Below, one piece after another: positions 6,171 through 64,000 of a stretch of DNA of 64,000 nucleotides (positions are counted from its first letter, which is position 1; each line of letters begins with the position of its first letter). Below the pieces are notes generated by a model. That model searched no databases and was not told where the DNA came from. It saw nothing but the letters and a program-made list of their open reading frames with translations. Both the position numbers and the translations under genes were made by a program. The stretch is from Paracoccus zhejiangensis (GTDB taxonomy: Bacteria; Pseudomonadota; Alphaproteobacteria; Rhodobacterales; Rhodobacteraceae): assembly GCF_002847445.1 (NCBI RefSeq), contig NZ_CP025430.1, positions 1,922,001 through 1,986,000 on the forward strand. The letters run 5' to 3'.

Positions 6171-7172
6171 ATGGCAGTCAAGGTAGCGATCAACGGCTTC
6201 GGGCGGATCGGACGCAACGTTCTGCGCGCGATCATCGAATCGGGCCGCACCGATATCGAGGTCATCGCGATCAACGATCTGGGTCCGGTCGAGACCAATG
6301 CCCACCTGATCCGCTTTGACAGCGTGCATGGCCGTTTCCCCGGCACGGTTACCGTCAACGGTGACAGCATCGACGTGGGCCGTGGCCCGATCAAGGTGAC
6401 CGCGATCCGCAACCCGGCCGACCTGCCCTGGGGCGATGTCGACGTTGTGCTGGAATGCACCGGCATCTTCACCGATGCCGACAAGGCCAAGGTCCACCTG
6501 GAAAACGGCTCCAGCCGCGTTCTGGTCTCGGCCCCCTCGAAAGGCGCCAGCAAGACCATCGTCTTCGGCGTCAACGATGACACGCTGACCTCGGAAGACC
6601 TGATCGTCTCGAATGCCAGCTGCACCACCAACTGCCTGTCGCCGGTGGCCAAGGTCCTGAACGATGCCATCGGCATCAAGAAGGGCTTCATGACCACCAT
6701 CCACAGCTATACCGGCGACCAGCCGACGCTGGACACGATGCACAAGGACTTGTACCGCGCCCGCGCCGCCGCCATGTCGATGATCCCGACCTCGACCGGT
6801 GCCGCGAAGGCCGTGGGTCTGGTCCTGCCCGAGCTGAACGGCAAGCTGGACGGCGTTGCCATCCGCGTGCCGACGCCGAACGTCTCGGTCGTCGACCTGG
6901 TCTTCGAAGCCGAGCGCCCGACCACCGTCGAAGAGGTGAACGCGGCGATCAAGGCGGCCGCCGATGGCCCGCTGAAGGGCATCCTCGGCTATACCGATCA
7001 GCCGAACGTCTCGATCGACTTCAACCACGACCCGCATTCTTCGATCTTCCACCTGGATCAGACCAAGGTGCTGGAAGGCAACATGGTCCGCATCCTGACC
7101 TGGTATGACAACGAATGGGGCTTCTCGAACCGCATGTCCGACACTGCCGTGGCGATGGGCAAGCTGATCTGA
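6171..7172 (+). CDS. gap: Glyceraldehyde-3-phosphate dehydrogenase, type I
   Basis: Converts glyceraldehyde 3-phosphate, NAD+ and phosphate to 1,3-bisphosphoglycerate in glycolysis and the reverse reaction in gluconeogenesis. The 333-residue length is normal. The NAD-binding INGFGRIGR is at 7-15. The catalytic Cys151 lies in [10 protein letters not shown], and the C-terminal [12 protein letters not shown] is intact. The INDL sequence at 34-37 suggests NAD rather than NADP use. The ATG at 6171 follows AGGCGGAG. The gene ends at a strong terminator and is probably monocistronic. Confidence 0.97.
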
Positions 7173-7195
7173 GCGCAAGCCGTCAGGACAAATTG

Positions 7196-7225
7196 AAAAC
7201 GGCGGGGCATGTCCCCGCCGTTTTT
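7196..7225 (+). terminator. Intrinsic terminator of gap
   Basis: AAAACGGCGGGG (7196-7207) pairs with CCCCGCCGTTTT (7213-7224), followed by a further T. The perfect 12-bp dyad has A/T at both ends, so it may also stop transcripts arriving from the minus-strand gene downstream. Confidence 0.9.
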
Positions 7226-7271
7226 CATTCTGGCTGTCTGATCTGAACCGCCAGGCCGGGGTGAATGGCGC

Positions 7272-7586
7272 TTACCGGCTGCCAGTCAGCCGACGCGAAT
7301 TGGCGCGGGTGCGTTTGCCATAGGGGCGCAGGGCGGCGGACATGACCCGCTCGGCACTGGCGCCGCGGCTGGCGGCGCGGGTCATCGCGAACAGCGATTC
7401 GGTCGCGGCGGCCTGTTTCTCGGCGACCATGCGGAAAGGCTCGCCCGGGGACTGGTTCATCATGCCCATCATGCCGAGGACCCGCATTCCGATGACGAAT
7501 TGCGATTCGATGGCGATGCGGGTCATCTGGCTCATCAGGGCGATCTGGGCCGAGGGAGCAGCCAAGAAATTGAAGGAATTATTCAT
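7272..7586 (-). CDS. Small phasin-like conserved hypothetical protein
   Basis: A 104-residue protein with many Met and Ala residues. The first half is helical (AQIALMSQMTRIAIESQFVI), followed by RVLGMMGMMNQSPGEPFRMV and a middle EKQAAATESLFAMTRAASRG. The C-terminus is strongly basic (RPYGKRTRANSRRL). The pattern of amphipathic helices and size resemble phasin-like granule-associated proteins, and similar Rhodobacterales proteins carry uninformative names. That assignment is weak. AGGAAAGGA precedes the ATG at 7586. It diverges from pyrC. Confidence 0.55.
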   Translation of the reverse strand: MNNSFNFLAAPSAQIALMSQMTRIAIESQFVIGMRVLGMMGMMNQSPGEPFRMVAEKQAAATESLFAMTRAASRGASAERVMSAALRPYGKRTRANSRRLTGSR

Positions 7587-7678
7587 GTTGCAGCGTCCTT
7601 TCCTGTCTCCCCGATTGCACTAACTGCATACGCATCCCTCATTTTACAACCACAACTTTAGGATTGGGTGTAGATGGC

Positions 7679-7706
7679 TTGGCATTTGTGGCCGCCACGC
7701 TATAGA
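7679..7706 (+). promoter_or_regulatory. Probable promoter of pyrCE
   Basis: TTGGCA (7679-7684) and TATAGA (7701-7706) are separated by 16 bp and lie directly before the pyrC ATG at 7715. Start of transcription would fall within a few bases of the start codon, giving a leaderless or nearly leaderless message. Confidence 0.55.
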
Positions 7707-7714
7707 GGCAGGCC

Positions 7715-8758
7715 ATGACCCACAGCATCACGATCCGCCGCCCCGACGACTGGCACCTGCATCTGCGCGATGGCGAGATGCTGGCAGCCGTGGCCCCGCA
7801 TTCCGCCGGTTTCGGCCGCGCGATCATCATGCCCAACCTGGTGCCGCCGGTGGTGACCGGCGCGCAGGCCGCCGCCTATCGCGAGCGGATCATCGCCGCC
7901 CTGCCCGAGGGTGCTGCGCTTCAGCCGCAGATGACACTTTACCTGACCGACACGACCGATCCGGGCGATGTGGTCGCCGCGCATCAGTCGGGCATCATCC
8001 GCGCGGTGAAGCTTTATCCTGCCGGGGCCACCACCAATTCGGCCAGCGGCGTCACCGATTTCGACCGGGTGCGCCCGGTACTGGAAGCCATGGCCGAAAC
8101 CGGCATTCCGCTGTGCGTACATGGCGAGGTTACCGATCCTGCGGTCGACATCTTCGACCGCGAAGCTGTGTTCATCGACCGCGTGCTGGACCCGGTGCGC
8201 CGCGCCACGCCGGGCCTGCGGGTGGTGATGGAGCATATCACCACCGCCGATGGCGTCGCCTATGCCCGTTCGGGTGGCGAGGATCTGGGCGCGACGATCA
8301 CCACCCATCACCTGGTCATCAACCGCAATGCCATCCTCGCCGGCGGCATCCGGCCGCATTACTATTGCCTGCCGGTCGCCAAGCGCGAAAGCCACCGGCT
8401 GGCCCTGCGAGAGGCGGCGACCTCGGGCGAGGCGCGGTTCTTCCTCGGCACCGACAGCGCGCCGCATCCCGACCGCGCCAAACTGATGCCCTGCGGCTGC
8501 GCCGGCTGCTTCACCGCGCCGAACACCATGTCGATTCTCGCCCATGTCTTCGAGGAAGACGGCGCGCTGGACCGGCTCGAGGCCTTTGCCAGCCTGAACG
8601 GCGCCGCCTTCTATGGCCTGCCGCCGAACGAGGATCGCATCACCCTGACCCGGCGCGCCACTCCCGCCACCTACCCCGAAACCATCACCGCCGGCGTCGA
8701 GACGGTCACCCTTTTCGATCCCGGCTATCCGCTGTTCTGGCACCTGGAGTCCACATGA
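7715..8758 (+). CDS. pyrC: Dihydroorotase
   Basis: Cyclises carbamoyl aspartate to dihydroorotate, the third step of pyrimidine synthesis. The 347-residue length fits the short class II (E. coli PyrC) type. The zinc-binding HLH is at 14-16. The lysine expected to be carbamylated is Lys99 in RAVKLYPAG, and further metal ligands appear in CVHGEV and MEHITT. TDSAPHP carries the catalytic Asp. It overlaps pyrE by ATGA, so the two are translationally coupled. Confidence 0.96.
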
Positions 8759-9426
8759 GCCTGCCCTACCCCACGCGCGAGGAAATCGCCCGCCTCTCGG
8801 CCCGGATGCTCTTGGAAATCAAGGCCGTCGATTTCAATGCCGAGACGCCCTTCACCTATGCCTCGGGTCTGAAGGGGCCGACCTATGTCGATTGCCGCCG
8901 GATCATCAGCTTTCCGCGCGTGCGCCAGACACTGATGGATTTCATGGCCGCGACCGTCATGCGCGATGCCGGTTTCGAGGCCTTCGACAACGTGGCAGGC
9001 GGCGAGACGGCGGGCATTCCCTTCGGCGCCATGGTGGCCGAACGGCTTGGCCTGCCGATGACCTATGTGCGCAAGAAGCCCAAGGGCTATGGCCGCAATG
9101 CCCGGATCGAGGGCGTCATGACCGAGGGCCAGCGGGTGCTGCTGGTCGAGGATCTGACCACCGATGGCGGCTCGAAGCTGAGCTTCGTCGACGCGATCCG
9201 CGAGACCGGGGCCAGCTGCGCCCATACGGCGGTGATCTTCTATTACGGCATCTTCCCCGAGACGACCCAGCGGCTGGCCGATCACGGCGTGCAACTGCAT
9301 CATCTCTGCACCTGGTGGGATGTTCTTGCCGAAGCCCGCGCGCAGGAGGCCTTTGACGCGGCGACACTGGCCGAGGTCGAGACCTTCCTGACCAATCCCC
9401 GCGTGTGGCAGGCGGCGCATAGTTGA
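8755..9426 (+). CDS. pyrE: Orotate phosphoribosyltransferase
   Basis: Joins orotate to PRPP to give OMP, the fifth step of pyrimidine synthesis. The 223-residue frame begins [12 protein letters not shown] with its ATG overlapping the pyrC stop. The PRPP-binding signature [13 protein letters not shown] is present, as is the catalytic-loop [10 protein letters not shown]. Pairing with pyrC makes a compact pyrimidine operon. About 25 nt after the stop come three DnaA-box-like repeats that belong to dnaB. Confidence 0.96.
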
Positions 9427-56963: not shown

Positions 56964-59465
56964 TCAGAGCGCCACATCCAGTGCATCGGGATCGACGCCG
57001 CGCTTTACTGCGGCGTCGCGCACGACCTGACGCAGGGCCGGGCTGCGCTTCAACAGCTTGCGAAAGCGCTCCTCGTCCAGCTTCAGCAGGGTCGAGGGCA
57101 CGATGGCCTTCACCTCGGTCCGCAGCGGGTTCTTCATCAGCAAGAACATCTGCCCGAACATCTCGCCCCGGCCAAGCCGGTGGCGGACGCCCGCCGTCTC
57201 GGCCTCGACCGCGCCCGAGGAGATGAAATAGACCGCGCGCTCATGCGCATCCTTGCTCTGGATCACCTGCCCCGGCGCGGCATAGCGGGTCAGAAGCGCC
57301 CGGGACAGCGGCTTCAGCGTGGCATCATCCAGCCCGGCAAAGGCCGGCAGGCGGCGGACCAGTTCGAGCTTCTGCACCGCCAGATCAAGGTGCGGGCGGG
57401 CCTCGGAACTGGCACGGCGGGCGGCGATGCCCTGGTTGAGCGACAGGTGCAGCTCGTCCCCGATCAGCCCGTCCTCGTAGAAGGATTCGTATTCGCGCTC
57501 CTCCAGCCGCAGGGCCGTGCGGCGGATCAGCCGGCGTTCCAGTTCTTCGGCGAATTCCGGGAACTGCAGCCGCAGCCCCTCCAGCGTCTGCTCGACCTCT
57601 TCCATGCGACGTTCCAGCATCTCGTGCAGCAGGTCCGAGACCCGGCGGCCATGGATGCGGCGAATGCGGCGGTCGATGAAGCCATGCAGTTCCGACAGGA
57701 TCTGGCGCTGTGCGATCAGTTCCTCGAAGCCGTTCGCGGTCATCCGCTCCAGCCCCCGCGACAGGCCGAGGCGGTTGTGGAGCGTCATGGCCACGCGCAA
57801 GCGTATCCCCGGTTGCAACCAATCGCGCGCGGCCCGGGCATAGCCCAACCGCCCACCGGTGCGCGCGCCCTCCATCACCCGATCGGCCTGGGCCAGCACC
57901 GTTTCCAGAATGCGGGCGGAGATCTCGCGCTCGCGGAAGGCTTTCAGCACCAGGTCCCTCTCGGCCCCGGCCAGCGCGATCAGGCCAAGCGTCACCCGGT
58001 CGCGGTCCAGGATGGACTCGGATTCCTCGGCCTTGGACACGGCTTCGTCCAGCCGCTGTGCAAATCGTTTTGCCTCGGATCGGACGGTCTCGCGGGTCAG
58101 GCGGAAGCCCTCGGCGGTCTGGGCGATATCCTCGCGCACCTGCTGCAGCGCCACGGCGACCACCTGATTGGAGAGCGCGCTGTCCAGGGGCGACAGCTTG
58201 CTGAGCCCCAGCCGGCGGATGACCCGCCGCAAGGTCGTCCCTTGCACGAAGAGGGTGAAAAGGGTGAAGCCGGTGGCCAGGATACCGACCTGCCGCTTGA
58301 TGTCAGGATCGACGCGGAAATTCTCGGTCACCGCCAGCGCCAGCGCCAGCGTCACCGCGCCGCGAAGGCCGCCCCACAGGATTGCCACGCGGTAGGGCCG
58401 CTGCACTTCCGGCGAAAGGCGCAGCCGGGATAGGATCGGCAGCACGCCCCACAGGATCACCGCGCGGGCCACGAAGGCCGCGACGATGACCACGCCGATC
58501 AGCAACAGGTCGTTCAGCCGCGCGTCGCCCAGAAGGCGCGGGATCAGCAGCGCGGCAAGGATGAAGATCAGCGCCCCGGCCCAATGCGCCAGCGCCGCCC
58601 AGATCTGCCGCAAGTTGGCCCAGATCGCCGGTGACATCCGGCCCGGCCCGAGGAAGTTCAGCGTCATGGCCGAAACGACCACCGCGATCACGCCAGAGGC
58701 ATAGCCGCTTTGTTCGGCGGCGATGAAGGCAAGGTAGGGCAAGGCAATGGAGAGCGAGATCACGGCCAATTCGTGCTCGGCCACCATGGCCATGACCGCA
58801 GCAGCAACCCGCGCCGCCAGCCAGCCGATCAGCGCGCCGCCCAGCATCAGCACCGGCAGGCGCAGCAGCGCCGAGCCGATGGTCGGGGCGGTCTCGCCGG
58901 TCATCACCAGCCCCATGAACAGCGAGAAAAGCGCGATGGCGGCGGCGTCGTTCAACAGGCTCTCGCCCTCGATGATCCGCGCCAGCCGCCGGGGTGCCGC
59001 GAGTGAGCGGAAGATGGCGACGACGGCCGAGGGGTCGGTGGTCGAGACAATGGCGCCGATCAGGAAGGCCGCGGCGAAGGGCATGGCCCCGGTCCAGCTG
59101 AGCGCCATGCCGACGAAGAAGGTGGCGATCAGCACCGCCACCACGGCGAGGACGAGGATCGGCACCCAGTCATCGGCCATGCGGCGCAGGTTCATCTCGA
59201 TCACCGCCTGAAAGATCAGCGTCGGCAGGAAGATGTACAGGAAGACGTTCGAGCGGATCGGCAGCATCAGGATCGCCGCCGCCTGCTGGTTGAAGGCGTC
59301 GGTCAGCTCGGTCCTGAGCAGGAACCCTGCCCCGGTGGCGATGATGACCCCGATCAGCGCCAGAACCACGCTGAAGGGCAGACGCAGGCGAATGGCCAGC
59401 GGTTCGGAAAGACCAATGACCAGGAACAGCGACGCAATGATTGTCGTGATAACAACGATATCCAT
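56964..59465 (-). CDS. Cation:proton antiporter with cyclic-nucleotide-binding domain
   Basis: 833 residues. The first 400 or so form a CPA1/NhaP-type antiporter of about twelve membrane segments, with IVSTTDPSAVVAIFRSLAAP and EGESLLNDAAAIALFSLFMG holding the ion-binding aspartates. A long helical cytoplasmic stretch follows. Near the C-terminus is a cNMP-binding fold (LPAFAGLDDATLKPLSRALL, then YFISSGAVEAETAG and RLGRGEMFGQMFLLMKNPLR). Regulation by a cyclic nucleotide is plausible; the cation, Na+ or K+, is not predictable. Confidence 0.88.
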   Translation of the reverse strand: MDIVVITTIIASLFLVIGLSEPLAIRLRLPFSVVLALIGVIIATGAGFLLRTELTDAFNQQAAAILMLPIRSNVFLYIFLPTLIFQAVIEMNLRRMADDWVPILVLAVVAVLIATFFVGMALSWTGAMPFAAAFLIGAIVSTTDPSAVVAIFRSLAAPRRLARIIEGESLLNDAAAIALFSLFMGLVMTGETAPTIGSALLRLPVLMLGGALIGWLAARVAAAVMAMVAEHELAVISLSIALPYLAFIAAEQSGYASGVIAVVVSAMTLNFLGPGRMSPAIWANLRQIWAALAHWAGALIFILAALLIPRLLGDARLNDLLLIGVVIVAAFVARAVILWGVLPILSRLRLSPEVQRPYRVAILWGGLRGAVTLALALAVTENFRVDPDIKRQVGILATGFTLFTLFVQGTTLRRVIRRLGLSKLSPLDSALSNQVVAVALQQVREDIAQTAEGFRLTRETVRSEAKRFAQRLDEAVSKAEESESILDRDRVTLGLIALAGAERDLVLKAFREREISARILETVLAQADRVMEGARTGGRLGYARAARDWLQPGIRLRVAMTLHNRLGLSRGLERMTANGFEELIAQRQILSELHGFIDRRIRRIHGRRVSDLLHEMLERRMEEVEQTLEGLRLQFPEFAEELERRLIRRTALRLEEREYESFYEDGLIGDELHLSLNQGIAARRASSEARPHLDLAVQKLELVRRLPAFAGLDDATLKPLSRALLTRYAAPGQVIQSKDAHERAVYFISSGAVEAETAGVRHRLGRGEMFGQMFLLMKNPLRTEVKAIVPSTLLKLDEERFRKLLKRSPALRQVVRDAAVKRGVDPDALDVAL

Positions 59466-59612: not shown

Positions 59613-61145
59613 TTACTCGGTCAGCAATGCGCCGAAATCGGCATCCAGCGTCGACAATGCGGTGGCGATGTGATCGCGCCGGGCCTTGACCCAGTCTTGC
59701 CGCTCCGTCAGGTCGGCACGGGCCTCGGTGATCATGCGGGTCATCTCGGCCGGTTGCGGGCCGCCGGCAGTGGCGCGGTTGCGGATGATTGCCACCGGGT
59801 CCAGCGTGGCGCGGAAGACCTCTTCGGTCAGCGGCAGTTCTTTCGCGTGATCAGTTTCGGCCACGGTCTCGGCATAGATGCGCTGTGCCTCGGCATAGGG
59901 GAAATCCAGCGGGCCAAGATTATTCGCGCGGGCATAGGTGACCACTTCCGAGGCGAAGTGATGGCCCTCGCGGAAGGGCAGCCCATGTTCGCGCATCAAG
60001 AGGTCGGCCAGTTCCTGCGAGGCGGTCCAGTCGCTGTTCAGTTCCTCCAGCGCCCGTTCGGGATTGATCCGCAGCGCCTTCAGCACCCGGTCGAGCCGCC
60101 CCAGCGCGGAGATGCCGGCATCGACCATGGCGGCATTGTCTTCGACCGATTTCGGGTCGGACATGCCGGGGGTGATGTTGTGGGTCTGGATCACCGGGCC
60201 CATTGCCAGCGCGATCGCCTGCGAGGCATCGCTGCGGGCATTGTTCAGGATGCCGGGATTGCGCTTCTGCGGCATGGCGCTGCTGACATAGGTGTTATCG
60301 CCACCCTCCTCCAGCAGGATCCACGGCCGGGTCTGGGCATATTGGGTCATCACGTCCTCGACGAAGTTCCCCACGTGCAACGAGACCGAGGTGACGATGC
60401 CGGCAACCTCGACCGGCTGGTCCATGGACGAGATCTGCGAGGCATCATAAGCGTTGTCGACCAGCGCGGCGAAGCCCAGATAGTCGGCCATGCGCTGGCG
60501 GTTCAGCGGCCAGCTGGTGCCGTTGAGAACGGTCGTGCCCATCGCCGAGCGGTCGATCCGGGCATAGGCCTCGCGGATGCGTTCGGCGTCGCGGGCAAGG
60601 CCCGCCGCATGGCCCAGCAGATAGTGACCATAGCTGTTGGGCTGGGCAGCCACGCCATTGGTATAGTTCGGCACCACGGTCTCGGCATGGGTCTCGGCCA
60701 GATCGACCAGCGTGGTCGAGGTCGCGTCCAACTGGCTGGCCAGGTCCAGCAGCTTGTCGCGCAGCATCGCGGCGCGATAGGTGGCGTGCATGTCCTGGCT
60801 GGACCGCCCGGCATGGACGAGGGTGACATCGATGCCGCCCTTCTCTATCCACAGCGGCTCGAAACTGATGACCGTTCCGGGCCGCTCGGCATCGGGCTGG
60901 TCGCCATCGGCGATGACCTGTGTCAGGGCTCCGGCGATCTCGGGGGCGAGCGCCGGGTCCAACAGCCCCTCCTGGCTGTTGATGACGACGCTGGCCTTGT
61001 TGATCTGCGAGAGCCAGAAGAATTCATCCCGTTGTTCGGGTTCGGACTGCGCTGCGGCCAGCGTGGCAAAGCCCGCAACCGTCCCGCCAAGCGTCAGCGC
61101 AATCAGCCGCCGTCCCATACGACCTTTCGGATTGTGATAGGTCAT
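59613..61145 (-). CDS. Exported argininosuccinate lyase/fumarase-superfamily lyase
   Basis: 510 residues. An N-terminal export signal (GRMGRRLIALTLGGTVAGFA ending near LAAAQ, residues 1-33) precedes a full lyase fold. The signature loop SSAMPQKRNPG is at 288-298 and HAGRSSQD at 111-118, matching region 1 of argininosuccinate lyases. Region 2 reads VPNYTNGVAAQP at 158-169, with Asn163 where argininosuccinate lyase has the catalytic-region His. Cytosolic arginine synthesis is therefore unlikely. A periplasmic enzyme splitting an N- or O-succinyl compound to fumarate is a better guess. GAGGAGGAAC supports ATG 61145. It has its own operator and lies behind dctR. Confidence 0.8.
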   Translation of the reverse strand: MTYHNPKGRMGRRLIALTLGGTVAGFATLAAAQSEPEQRDEFFWLSQINKASVVINSQEGLLDPALAPEIAGALTQVIADGDQPDAERPGTVISFEPLWIEKGGIDVTLVHAGRSSQDMHATYRAAMLRDKLLDLASQLDATSTTLVDLAETHAETVVPNYTNGVAAQPNSYGHYLLGHAAGLARDAERIREAYARIDRSAMGTTVLNGTSWPLNRQRMADYLGFAALVDNAYDASQISSMDQPVEVAGIVTSVSLHVGNFVEDVMTQYAQTRPWILLEEGGDNTYVSSAMPQKRNPGILNNARSDASQAIALAMGPVIQTHNITPGMSDPKSVEDNAAMVDAGISALGRLDRVLKALRINPERALEELNSDWTASQELADLLMREHGLPFREGHHFASEVVTYARANNLGPLDFPYAEAQRIYAETVAETDHAKELPLTEEVFRATLDPVAIIRNRATAGGPQPAEMTRMITEARADLTERQDWVKARRDHIATALSTLDADFGALLTE

Positions 61146-61204
61146 CGTTCCTCCTCTCAATGACATTCCTCGGGAGGAGAGTAACCGCCGGTCGCCGCCG
61201 CGGA

Positions 61205-61226
61205 CTATTGTGGATTACCGCGATAG
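61205..61226 (-). promoter_or_regulatory. Probable DctR operator of the lyase gene
   Basis: On the minus strand this reads CTATCG-N10-CAATAG, sharing 19 of 22 positions with the dyad in the dctS-dctP gap. It ends 59 bp before the lyase ATG, an activator-like position. Confidence 0.65.
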
Positions 61227-61239
61227 GCGGGAAACGCCG

Positions 61240-61836
61240 CTATCGCTTGGTCTCGCCGTTCATCATCGTCGCCAGCTCGATGCCGTTCCGCGCGCCCATC
61301 TTCTGCAAGACCCGGCTGCGATGCACCTCGACCGTGCGGATGGCGATGTTCAGCGTGTCGGCGATCTGCTTATTCAGCGCGCCTTTCAGCATCTCCTCCA
61401 TCACCTCTTCCTCGCGGCCCGACAGCGAGGCCCGGCGCGCTGCCAGATCGCGCTGCTGCGCGGCCTCGGTCTCGTCGGCCTGATGCTGGTCGATGGCGCG
61501 CAGGGCCAGATCGACGATCTGGTTGTCGTTGAAGGGCTTTTCGAGGAAGTCGAACGCCCCGGCCTTCAGTGCCTCGACGGCAATCGGCACATCGGCATGG
61601 CCGGTCAGGAAGATCACCGGGGCGGTCATTCCCGCCGCGCGCAGCCGTGGAAAGACCTCGGGGCCGCTGAGCCCGCCCATGCGCACGTCGAGGATGACAC
61701 AGGCACAATCTCCCAGTGGCTGCGCCGCCAGAAACGCCTCGCCCGAGGGCCAGACCTGCGAGTCGAGCCCGCGCGAGGCGAAGAGAAAGGCCAGCGCGTC
61801 GCGGATGGCCTCGTCGTCATCGACAATATGGATCAT
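61240..61836 (-). CDS. dctR: FixJ-type response regulator, probable DctR
   Basis: 198 residues: a receiver domain with Asp50 as phospho-acceptor (CACVILDVRMGG) and the Lys of FDFLEKPF, then a LuxR-type helix-turn-helix (LSGREEEVMEEMLKGALNKQ through IRTVEVHRSRVLQKMG). The type matches DctR of Rhodobacter capsulatus, which activates the TRAP transporter dctPQM. The ATG overlaps the kinase stop (ATGA). The operator at 61205 lies just past its stop. Confidence 0.82.
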   Translation of the reverse strand: MIHIVDDDEAIRDALAFLFASRGLDSQVWPSGEAFLAAQPLGDCACVILDVRMGGLSGPEVFPRLRAAGMTAPVIFLTGHADVPIAVEALKAGAFDFLEKPFNDNQIVDLALRAIDQHQADETEAAQQRDLAARRASLSGREEEVMEEMLKGALNKQIADTLNIAIRTVEVHRSRVLQKMGARNGIELATMMNGETKR

Positions 61837-63857
61837 GTCCCTTCCTCTTCCTCGTGCTGCGCGGATCGCTGCAACGGCAAGGCGACCCGGAACACGGTCC
61901 CGCCGCCCGGCGCCGCGGCAAAGCTCAGCTGCCCGCGATGCAATTCCGCGACCGAGCGGCAGATCTTCAGCCCCATGCCCATGCCCTGCGCCTTGGTGCT
62001 GGCGAAGGCGTCGAACAGGCGCCCGGCGATCTCGTCGGAAATCCCGGCGCCGCGATCGGTCACCTCGATCACCGCCTGCCCTTCCTCGACAGCCAGCCGG
62101 ATCTGCACGGTGTCGCCGCTGCGGGTCTCGGCCATGGCCTCCATGCCGTTGCGGATCAGGTTGATCAGCACCTGTTCCAACAGGATGCGGTCGGCCTCGA
62201 TGACCGGCGCGACCTCGATCCGTGTCTCCAGCGTGACCCGGTGCTCGCGCGCATCGGCGGCCAGGAAGCCCACCGTCTCGGCGACCACGGCATCCAGTGG
62301 CGTGGGGGCAAAGCGCGGTTCGCGCTTCTTCACCAGATCCTGGATATGGCGGATGATCTTGCCGGCGCGGTCCGCCTGCACCCCCAGCTTGCGATTGGCC
62401 TCGGCCAGCATCGCCGGATTGCTGCCCGGCCGCTCGAGCAGGTTCGACATGCCGGCGGAATAGGAGGCGATGGCGGACAGCGGCTGGTTCAGCTCATGGG
62501 CAAGAGTCGAGGCCATCTCGCCCAGGGTCACCAGCCGGCCGGTGCGGGCCAGCGTCTCGTCCTGCTGGCGGGCATTGCGTGCGGCGCGCTTTTGCTCGGT
62601 GATGTCGATGATCGAGCCCATCCAGCCGCGATGCCGGCCCGCCGCATCGATCAGCGGCGATTCGAAGACCTGCACATCGATCATCTTTCCGTCGCGGTGA
62701 CGAAAGCGGGACTCGAAGCTTTGCTGGACCGGACCGCCCTCTTCCAGCTTTCGGTGCCGGGCCTCGGTCTCCTCGATCCGCAGTGGGTCCCAATAGGGCA
62801 TCGGCGGCTCGCGCCCGACCAGCTCCGCGGCCTCCCAGCCAACCAGATCGCAGAAGGCGGAATTGACATAGAGGATGCGCCCGTCATGGTCGCGCGCCCT
62901 GAGCCCGACGGTCAGGCTTTCCTCCATCGAGCGACGGAACGCCGTCTCGCCGCGCCAGCGTGCCTCGGCCGCGCGGCGGCGGGCGGCGTTGCGGAAAAGG
63001 ACCAGCAGGGCAAGGATGGCAAAGCTGGCCAGCGCCGCGATCGCCCCCATCATGAGCGCAGAGCGGACGGCGGCGGGGGCGTCATAGGCGGTGATGGTCA
63101 ACAGCGTGCCGCGCAAGGGCGGGTCGAAGCTGATGCTGTGCGAGGGGTTGCTGTCCGGCGGCTCGACCCGCTGGCGGGTGGCGAAATCGGTTCCGGCCGC
63201 ATCTCGGATGCGCGCGCCATATTGCTCGGCGATCCACCAGGGCACATGCCGGTCGAGCAGCAGCTTGAGCGAGGTCGTGGCGGTCACGAAGCCCGCGCCA
63301 CCTTCCAGCGGCAGTCCCATCGTCACCGTGCCATCGGGCTGCACCGCGCCGTAAACCGGGCGCACGGCCTTGCGGGCCGAACCGGCCAGGAGCCGCAGCA
63401 GGTCGGGATCGCCGGTTGGCCCCAGCCCCGGCACCACCCGCAAGGGCTGGCCGGCGCCGTCATACCAGTTGACCGACAGGATCTCGGGATTGTTGGCGAT
63501 GTGCAGCCGGGTGCGGGCATCCAGCGCCGCCACATCGGCGCCGCCCGCCGATTCCAGCGACAGCCGGGCCAGCATGTCCTCGTCCATCGACATCTGGAAG
63601 CGCAGCGTCTGCTCGACCCAGAGCGCATCGGTGGCCAGCTTGATCCGCGCCTGTTCCGTCTCGTTGCGGCTGACGGCCCAGACCACCGCCGCAACCAGCG
63701 TCACCAGCGCGATGATCGCCACCAGCGGCACGATGGACAGCATGTCCCAACGACGACCCGGCTGCTGCCCGCCTTCGGGCAACCAGGGGTCGCCGGGCAG
63801 TGCGCCTTGCACGCGGCCACCGCGGCTGCCCTTCGCCAGACCGATCCTGTCGCGCAC
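61833..63857 (-). CDS. dctS: Sensor histidine kinase, probable DctS
   Basis: 674 residues from a GTG at 63857, which has AGGGGGA 9 nt upstream; this length is close to that of R. capsulatus DctS. The order is a 38-residue basic cytoplasmic lead, TM1 (40-63), a periplasmic sensing domain of about 200 residues, TM2 (267-289), a PAS domain (about 310-425), HisKA with His454 in STLAHELNQPLSA, and an HATPase domain with NLIRNGMEAMAE and FASTKAQGMGMGLKIC. It should sense external C4-dicarboxylates. A shorter start at ATG 63743 would remove the cytoplasmic lead. Confidence 0.82.
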   Translation of the reverse strand: MRDRIGLAKGSRGGRVQGALPGDPWLPEGGQQPGRRWDMLSIVPLVAIIALVTLVAAVVWAVSRNETEQARIKLATDALWVEQTLRFQMSMDEDMLARLSLESAGGADVAALDARTRLHIANNPEILSVNWYDGAGQPLRVVPGLGPTGDPDLLRLLAGSARKAVRPVYGAVQPDGTVTMGLPLEGGAGFVTATTSLKLLLDRHVPWWIAEQYGARIRDAAGTDFATRQRVEPPDSNPSHSISFDPPLRGTLLTITAYDAPAAVRSALMMGAIAALASFAILALLVLFRNAARRRAAEARWRGETAFRRSMEESLTVGLRARDHDGRILYVNSAFCDLVGWEAAELVGREPPMPYWDPLRIEETEARHRKLEEGGPVQQSFESRFRHRDGKMIDVQVFESPLIDAAGRHRGWMGSIIDITEQKRAARNARQQDETLARTGRLVTLGEMASTLAHELNQPLSAIASYSAGMSNLLERPGSNPAMLAEANRKLGVQADRAGKIIRHIQDLVKKREPRFAPTPLDAVVAETVGFLAADAREHRVTLETRIEVAPVIEADRILLEQVLINLIRNGMEAMAETRSGDTVQIRLAVEEGQAVIEVTDRGAGISDEIAGRLFDAFASTKAQGMGMGLKICRSVAELHRGQLSFAAAPGGGTVFRVALPLQRSAQHEEEEGT

Positions 63858-63870
63858 GCCGCAGATCCCC

Positions 63871-63892
63871 CTATTGCGGGAACCCACAATAG
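63871..63892. promoter_or_regulatory. Dyad between dctS and dctP, probable DctR operator
   Basis: CTATTG-N10-CAATAG, with GGG-AA-CCC in the centre, is a nearly perfect 22-bp dyad. It ends 68 bp before the plus-strand gene and 13 bp before the dctS GTG, so it may serve both directions. Confidence 0.65.
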
Positions 63893-63960: not shown

Positions 63961-64000
63961 ATGCTGAACCGTCGCAGCTTTGCGCGCCTTGCCGGCGCTG
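63961..64000 (+). CDS. dctP: Start of a Tat-exported protein, probably TRAP binding protein DctP (partial)
   Basis: The first 13 codons read MLNRRSFARLAGA, a twin-arginine-type export signal, with ACGGAGGA just upstream. Divergent placement from dctSR is the arrangement of the C4-dicarboxylate TRAP system in Rhodobacter, where dctP encodes the periplasmic binding protein. The rest lies outside the window, so the identity rests on context. Confidence 0.5.
   Translation, partial: MLNRRSFARLAGA

Follow-up and report, generated by a model that had tools for sequence, protein, structure and literature searches.

We report here a predicted regulatory link between the DctSR/DctPQM system of Paracoccus zhejiangensis and an exported-type lyase encoded next to it. 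The window, that is the whole stretch of 64,000 nucleotides that was analysed (1922001-1986000 on contig 1; genome size 4,637,247 bases), contains the genes for the sensor kinase DctS and the response regulator DctR, the start of the gene for DctP, the binding protein of a tripartite ATP-independent periplasmic (TRAP) transporter, and a gene for a lyase of the argininosuccinate-lyase superfamily. A dyad of 22 base pairs (bp) stands before both dctP and the lyase gene. Among the lyase-bearing genomes examined, a site of this kind precedes the lyase gene in all six that carry a close DctR and in none of the 39 that do not, and this comparison makes it very probable that the dyad is the operator of DctR and that the lyase gene is a DctR target. 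The following features are involved:

59613..61145, minus strand: exported-type lyase of the argininosuccinate-lyase superfamily, 510 amino acids, with the Pfam domains Lyase_1 and ASL_C2; the nearest solved structure is EDDS lyase.
61205..61226, minus strand: predicted DctR-type operator before the lyase gene, CTATCGCGGTAATCCACAATAG in the direction of the lyase, 28.7 bits, with the ATG 59 bp away.
61240..61836, minus strand: dctR, a FixJ/NarL-type response regulator of 198 amino acids with Response_reg and GerE domains; the best model is FixJ, under its cut-off.
61833..63743, minus strand: dctS, a sensor kinase with PAS, HisKA and HATPase domains and, between two membrane helices, a putative periplasmic Cache-type domain.
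63871..63892, plus strand: predicted DctR-type operator before dctP, CTATTGCGGGAACCCACAATAG, with the ATG 68 bp away; kept in other DctR-bearing genomes.
63961..64000, plus strand: start of dctP (TRAP binding protein), which runs past the window end and is followed by dctQ and dctM.
L001:5961-6971, 7075-7704 and 7701-9026: dctP, dctQ and dctM in full, with TIGR00787 for dctP and TIGR00786 for dctM.

Both dyads were located where a preliminary description of this DNA had placed them, at the spacing from the start codons that it had given. On the plus strand the lyase copy reads CTATTGTGGATTACCGCGATAG, and it has one arm mismatch against CTATTG-N10-CAATAG. The identity of 19 of 22 positions claimed for the two copies holds when each is read toward its own gene (CTATTGCGGGAACCCACAATAG versus CTATCGCGGTAATCCACAATAG) and falls to 15 of 22 on the plus strand. 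Symmetric pairs account for 9 of 11 in the dctP copy and 7 of 11 in the lyase copy. A search of the genome with at most one mismatch returned three places, two of which are the lyase and dctP dyads, and a common genomic repeat was thereby ruled out. A shorter core at the same tolerance was uninformative (48 places versus 30 in the reversed control). The comparative route was taken because the bare pattern alone could not exclude chance, and the reality of the dyads as sites rests on the comparison with other genomes.

The distribution of DctR and of the dctP-side site was surveyed within the genus and the family, using an ortholog cut-off of E <= 1e-60 and scoring at most 26 and 8 candidates per genome, respectively. 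A DctR ortholog is present in nine of 121 genus genomes, including that of the window. In 6/6 of the other genus genomes having dctP beside dctSR, the dyad is found in the dctS-dctP gap (the G018 copy departs from the consensus at three positions), and in two P. onubensis genomes, where dctPQM sits on another contig, the dyad is present before it there. The family scan, for which 394 genomes were drawn evenly from a larger group, revealed DctR in 14 genomes, and in 12 of the 13 other genera the dctS-dctP gap holds a site of at least 20 bits. The pattern CTATYGYGGNNNNCCRCRATAG, which was derived from the window's two copies, occurs with at most one mismatch at 11 places in 125 genus genomes: eight before dctP, two before the lyase gene and one inside an open reading frame (ORF). 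Eight of the nine genomes with a match have DctR. The ninth, G064, has no DctR ortholog at 1e-60; its match lies inside a 131-amino-acid ORF taken for a gene, at a locus where the codon-composition gene caller called nothing, and was read as chance, yet counted. The dyad thus follows DctR, which the preliminary description had called the obvious binder and which this comparison marks as the best candidate.

Further DctR-type sites were observed in several of these genomes. In both P. onubensis genomes a degraded dyad, CTATTGCGAAAAGGCAGAATAG, still stands before dctS (L099:10573 and L100:10261), dctPQM being elsewhere. In Frigidibacter oleivorans, a near-perfect copy, TTATTGCGGAAACCCACAATAG, precedes the tctCBA operon directly downstream of dctR (L157:5101-8075); since this tripartite tricarboxylate transporter carries a near-perfect DctR-type site, the DctR regulon may swap transporters. 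A second strong site is located downstream of dctR at L191:6314-6335, and no gene was called directly after it.

The lyase-side site was assessed with a weight matrix built, unlike the pattern above, from eight dctP-side sites of other genomes, the window genome and all lyase sites being left out. The predicted lyase operator at 61205-61226 scores 28.7 bits, a value that none of 1920 shuffles attained; these were made at 20 per stretch from 96 upstream stretches and preserve base composition only. Among the genus genomes with the lyase, the site was found upstream in 4/4 of those with DctR (29.6, 28.7, 23.2 and 23.2 bits) and in 0/12 of those without (best score 9.6 bits). When 80 lyase loci were scanned, more than 12 bits were reached in four, belonging to the P. 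alkanivorans and P. onubensis genomes (three loci) and to Frigidibacter (22.0 bits); none of the other loci exceeded 11.2 bits. The P. alkanivorans lyase is preceded by the core GCGGTAATCCACAATAG, as in the window. In 33 lyase genomes represented by these loci, DctR was searched for at E <= 1e-40, with 65% identity counted as an ortholog and 51% or less not, and a close ortholog was identified only in Frigidibacter oleivorans (65%); the rest of the 80 loci were scanned for the site alone. The family scan detected the lyase in just two of its 394 genomes, that of the window and a Falsirhodobacter genome (matching F. halotolerans), in which the lyase gene directly follows dctR in the same arrangement as in the window and the site is weaker, at 15.8 bits; this genome entered the count only once the matrix test had been run, and the 15.8-bit line was picked upon seeing its site.

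Altogether, the search of relatives for the dyad, proposed in the preliminary description, returned a site before the lyase gene in every lyase genome with a close DctR (five strong, one weak). The 39 genomes without comprise 12 of the genus and 27 of the 33, Frigidibacter and five repeated genus genomes having been left out. With kinship ignored, Fisher's test gives 1.2e-7 for 6/6 versus 0/39, 4.9e-6 if the weak Falsirhodobacter site is treated as absent, and 5.5e-4 for the genus alone. In P. alkanivorans, P. onubensis and Frigidibacter, the lyase and dctSR are on separate contigs, and the link between the lyase and DctR is therefore regulatory rather than one of mere neighbourhood. In a tree of 32 chosen lyases, the site bearers form no single clade (approximately unbiased test, p 0.0002), and at least three changes are needed to explain their distribution. 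The clusters P0005 (lyase) and P0122 (DctS), both from 6325-base contigs, are perhaps one further linked case.

Several observations weigh against this assignment and have to be set beside the counts above. The tree offers just three phylogenetically independent contrasts; all are in the expected direction, with a sign test p of 0.25, and with so few contrasts the test cannot reach significance. The two genes are mostly found apart, as DctR genomes have no lyase in five of nine cases in the genus and in 12 of 14 in the family scan, and 12 of the 16 genus genomes with the lyase have no DctR. Of the 33 lyase genomes, 18 carry FixJ-type proteins at 39-51% identity, some of which may be DctR-like with another site, and 14 have none at the cut-off. 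In Falsirhodobacter, the site before the lyase gene has degenerated in one half and runs into the called end of dctR. On the transporter side, one of the 13 other DctR genera (L181) has no site in its dctS-dctP gap, and Frigidibacter oleivorans has no full site before dctP. The bare pattern is only slightly unusual: with up to two mismatches it occurs twice in the window, where shuffles give a mean of 0.40 and 8 of 100 shuffles reach two, and genome-wide it is unenriched, at 28 places versus 48 for the reversed control. These last counts are what a chance origin of the lyase-side dyad has in its favour; nevertheless, such an origin is hardly credible, given the window's core before a P. alkanivorans lyase off the dctSR contig, similar sites in P. 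onubensis and Frigidibacter, and the absence of such a site before the lyase in all 39 genomes without a close DctR. Binding by a different FixJ/NarL-family regulator that co-occurs with DctR by coincidence is improbable as well: response-regulator candidates are numerous in each genome, but the one genus match that lies in a genome without DctR falls inside an ORF, and the gap site recurs with DctR in 12 of the 13 other genera.

The DctSR/DctPQM assignment is in agreement with the domain content of the proteins. DctR is a FixJ-like response regulator with a receiver domain and a LuxR-type helix-turn-helix; DctS is a membrane sensor kinase with a periplasmic sensor domain, encoded beside DctPQM, and some of its homologues bear the source name DctS. 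The transporter has a DctP (TIGR00787), a small permease and a large permease (TIGR00786); the small one, DctQ (209 amino acids, encoded between dctP and dctM), gives only a weak model match below the cut-off. Among solved structures, DctP most resembles DctP proteins that bind C4-dicarboxylates. The periplasmic part of DctS is predicted to adopt a Cache-type fold (predicted local distance difference test score 88.6), and succinate-bound DctB is among its structure matches, though not at the top and with TM-scores near 0.5. A role of DctS as C4-dicarboxylate sensor fits this model; the matches of the domain also cover many ligand classes, a point against the proposed explanation.

The same arrangement of sensor, regulator and TRAP transporter is known from Rhodobacter capsulatus and R. 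sphaeroides, compared with which the regulon predicted here has an extra member, the exported lyase. By its title, a 2021 paper on R. sphaeroides (doi 10.1099/mic.0.001037) reportedly makes DctP a part of DctS/DctR sensing; on that ground, the ligand sensed may be the ligand of DctP. In the open-access literature, no DctR operator of this kind, no lyase as regulon member and no function for this lyase family was found; subscription papers were outside its scope, and the DctR operator may already be known, e.g. from the 2021 DctP paper. The excerpted text of PMC9430884 states that C4-dicarboxylate transport in R. sphaeroides requires DctR, and the original DctSR work is among the citations in the part consulted of PMC4268860. 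The DctR of PMC8259166 is an E. coli regulator that shares the name. A paper on Paracoccus strain Merri (PMC12421959) uses neither 'argininosuccinate' nor 'DctP' in its main text.

The lyase gene starts at the ATG at 61145, with GGAGGAACG just 5' of it; the longest ORF begins at 61166. Members of its family carry the source name argininosuccinate lyase, and like ArgH the window lyase belongs to the superfamily with Lyase_1 and ASL_C2 domains. Unlike ArgH, it scores below the cut-off of TIGR00838 (197.6 versus 279.5), and it has YTN in place of the YTH motif. A true ArgH (603 bits) is encoded elsewhere in the genome, and an identity as ArgH was ruled out by these scores together. The XcbC model of NCBIfam, named for 2-phosphosulfolactate, gives 197.9 bits, which is also under its cut-off and level with ArgH. 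A loop of the form SSxMPxKxN is the mark of the aspartase/fumarase (argininosuccinate lyase) superfamily. In an alignment of 87 rows (some of them duplicates), the loop SSxMPQKxNP is invariant, and HAGRSSQDM, YTNGVAAQP and NPG are conserved at 0.99 or more. Taken with the residue changes described below, this conservation leads us to expect a functional enzyme whose substrate is particular to it. Of 7997 candidates scored, 3257 proteins fall within the family at E <= 1e-20, although the tail of this list may include other superfamily members.

By both sequence and predicted fold, the best solved relative is the EDDS lyase of Chelativorans sp. BNC1 (6g3d-6g3i, 6rx8), at about 26% identity; the model of the window lyase was used for the fold only, since its active site is of low confidence. 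EDDS lyase is a C-N lyase that adds amines to fumarate, and R112, N113, Q159, N288, D290 and Y320 are its substrate-near residues (both from the consulted part of PMC12363623). The window lyase differs from it in having an export-type leader and in five of these six residues, only N288 being kept. The claim in the preliminary description of an exported lyase of a fumarate-releasing superfamily is sustained in part: the fold is that of C-N lyases acting on fumarate, and most of the family rows printed have an N-terminal leader that looks exportable when judged by eye for basic residues, a hydrophobic stretch and a small-x-small end; some rows have no leader, perhaps due to start-codon choice. 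In Achromobacter xylosoxidans, three 'argininosuccinate lyases' are given as predicted Tat substrates and as expressed in the periplasm (Table 2 of PMC11533796). The genus carries the window lyase family, and a search of one A. xylosoxidans genome returned a single family member together with a distant paralogue (E <= 1e-15); the accessions of the three periplasmic proteins could not be matched to the family.

The genomic context of the lyase was examined in the 80 lyase loci, whose flanks extend to at most 8 kb and are in many cases shorter at contig ends; neighbouring genes were called with the codon-composition gene caller, and TRAP genes were sought by tblastn with DctP, DctQ and DctM of the window genome. 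No TRAP gene was detected in 75 of the 80 loci, where distant TRAP genes can escape this search. Five loci gave TRAP genes. In two Paracoccus species without a close DctR (L004:1249-9548 and L005:1203-9548), genes for a Cache-domain kinase, a sigma-54-type regulator, a TAXI-type binding protein and a fused TRAP permease lie on one strand in this order, with the permease directly before the lyase gene (domains were read in L004 alone). In L064 a DctM (55%) ends about 160 bp ahead of the lyase match, in L053 the lyase is followed by an alcohol dehydrogenase and then by DctP and a DctM, and L045 has a DctM at a distance of more than 6 kb. The lyase has therefore become linked to TRAP systems repeatedly, with differing regulators in control, yet for most lyases the DNA available shows no neighbour of this kind. 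Apart from the window, a lyase beside a close dctSR was found only in Falsirhodobacter. The preliminary description had named lyase homologues lying consistently away from TRAP or Dct genes as telling against it; this turned out to be half the case, given the 75 loci without TRAP genes and the single further lyase beside dctSR. Conserved gene neighbourhood was dropped as evidence, as the neighbours of the lyase vary widely; the finding survives this result because the site, not the neighbourhood, is conserved. In L061 and L066 the lyase is present in two tandem copies. In the window, the lyase gene is followed on the same strand by a gene for a Na+/H+ antiporter with a C-terminal cyclic-nucleotide-binding domain (56964-59465, minus strand).

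The mechanism we propose is that DctS, via its periplasmic Cache domain and perhaps together with DctP, would detect a C4-dicarboxylate or a close relative and phosphorylate DctR, which, bound to the 22-bp dyads, would activate the transporter and the lyase together. The exported lyase would cleave an external substituted compound of the succinyl type by beta-elimination to fumarate or an analogue, as may be assumed from its superfamily, and DctPQM would take up this product. For the whole explanation, comprising regulation, chemistry and uptake, we have moderate confidence. The fumarate-releasing chemistry, which is argued from the superfamily, has about even chances of being correct, and the case for uptake of the product by DctPQM is good but unproven; the TRAP genes near lyases without this DctSR (L004, L005, L053 and L064) were counted in its favour.

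It is possible, if rather unlikely, that DctR co-regulates a lyase whose product is not a C4-dicarboxylate and is merely useful under the same circumstances, e.g. on plant or algal exudates. In favour of this are the fixed differences near the substrate: relative to EDDS lyase, the family has the fixed changes R112S, N113Q, Q159N and D290G, while opposite Y320 the window lyase has a serine, in a loosely aligned stretch. With these substrate-near positions changed, the substrate might depart from that of EDDS lyase even in its C4 half. The family also has Asn for the His of the ArgH motif, where the title of PDB entry 1dcn (delta-crystallin) names H162N an inactive mutant, and a product of another kind agrees with the highly varied lyase neighbourhoods in other taxa and with an XcbC score as high as that of ArgH, both being sub-threshold. 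Against this, the catalytic loop and fold are those of fumarate-acting enzymes, and the TRAP genes beside the lyase in L004/L005, L053 and L064 fit a coupling of the lyase to uptake of its product. The same His-to-Asn change could be taken to mean that the exported protein has lost catalysis and, as a relative that only binds, hands a ligand to DctS or DctP; this has very little likelihood, considering that EDDS lyase, an active enzyme (PMC12363623), has Gln at that position and that the serine-loop motif is invariant in the family.

The co-regulation of lyase and transporter by DctR, with release of fumarate or an analogue outside the cytoplasm, is the reading we retain; a broader one is less probable than not. 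The family labelled argininosuccinate lyase may be a distinct periplasmic lyase that carries out a first digestion of external compounds of the N-, S- or O-succinyl kind and that several bacteria have separately wired into their own control of C4-dicarboxylate uptake, through DctSR here and through a sigma-54-type pair with a TAXI-TRAP transporter in other Paracoccus species; this would be an extracytoplasmic route of fumarate harvesting that was not found described. The predicted site provides a defined and testable operator for DctR, would extend a regulon known for transport by an enzyme, and hints, from the side of regulation, at what a widespread family of exported-type lyases does. If fumarate is indeed released outside the cytoplasm, this would explain how some bacteria could live on chelators or succinylated metabolites with no need to take up the intact compounds.

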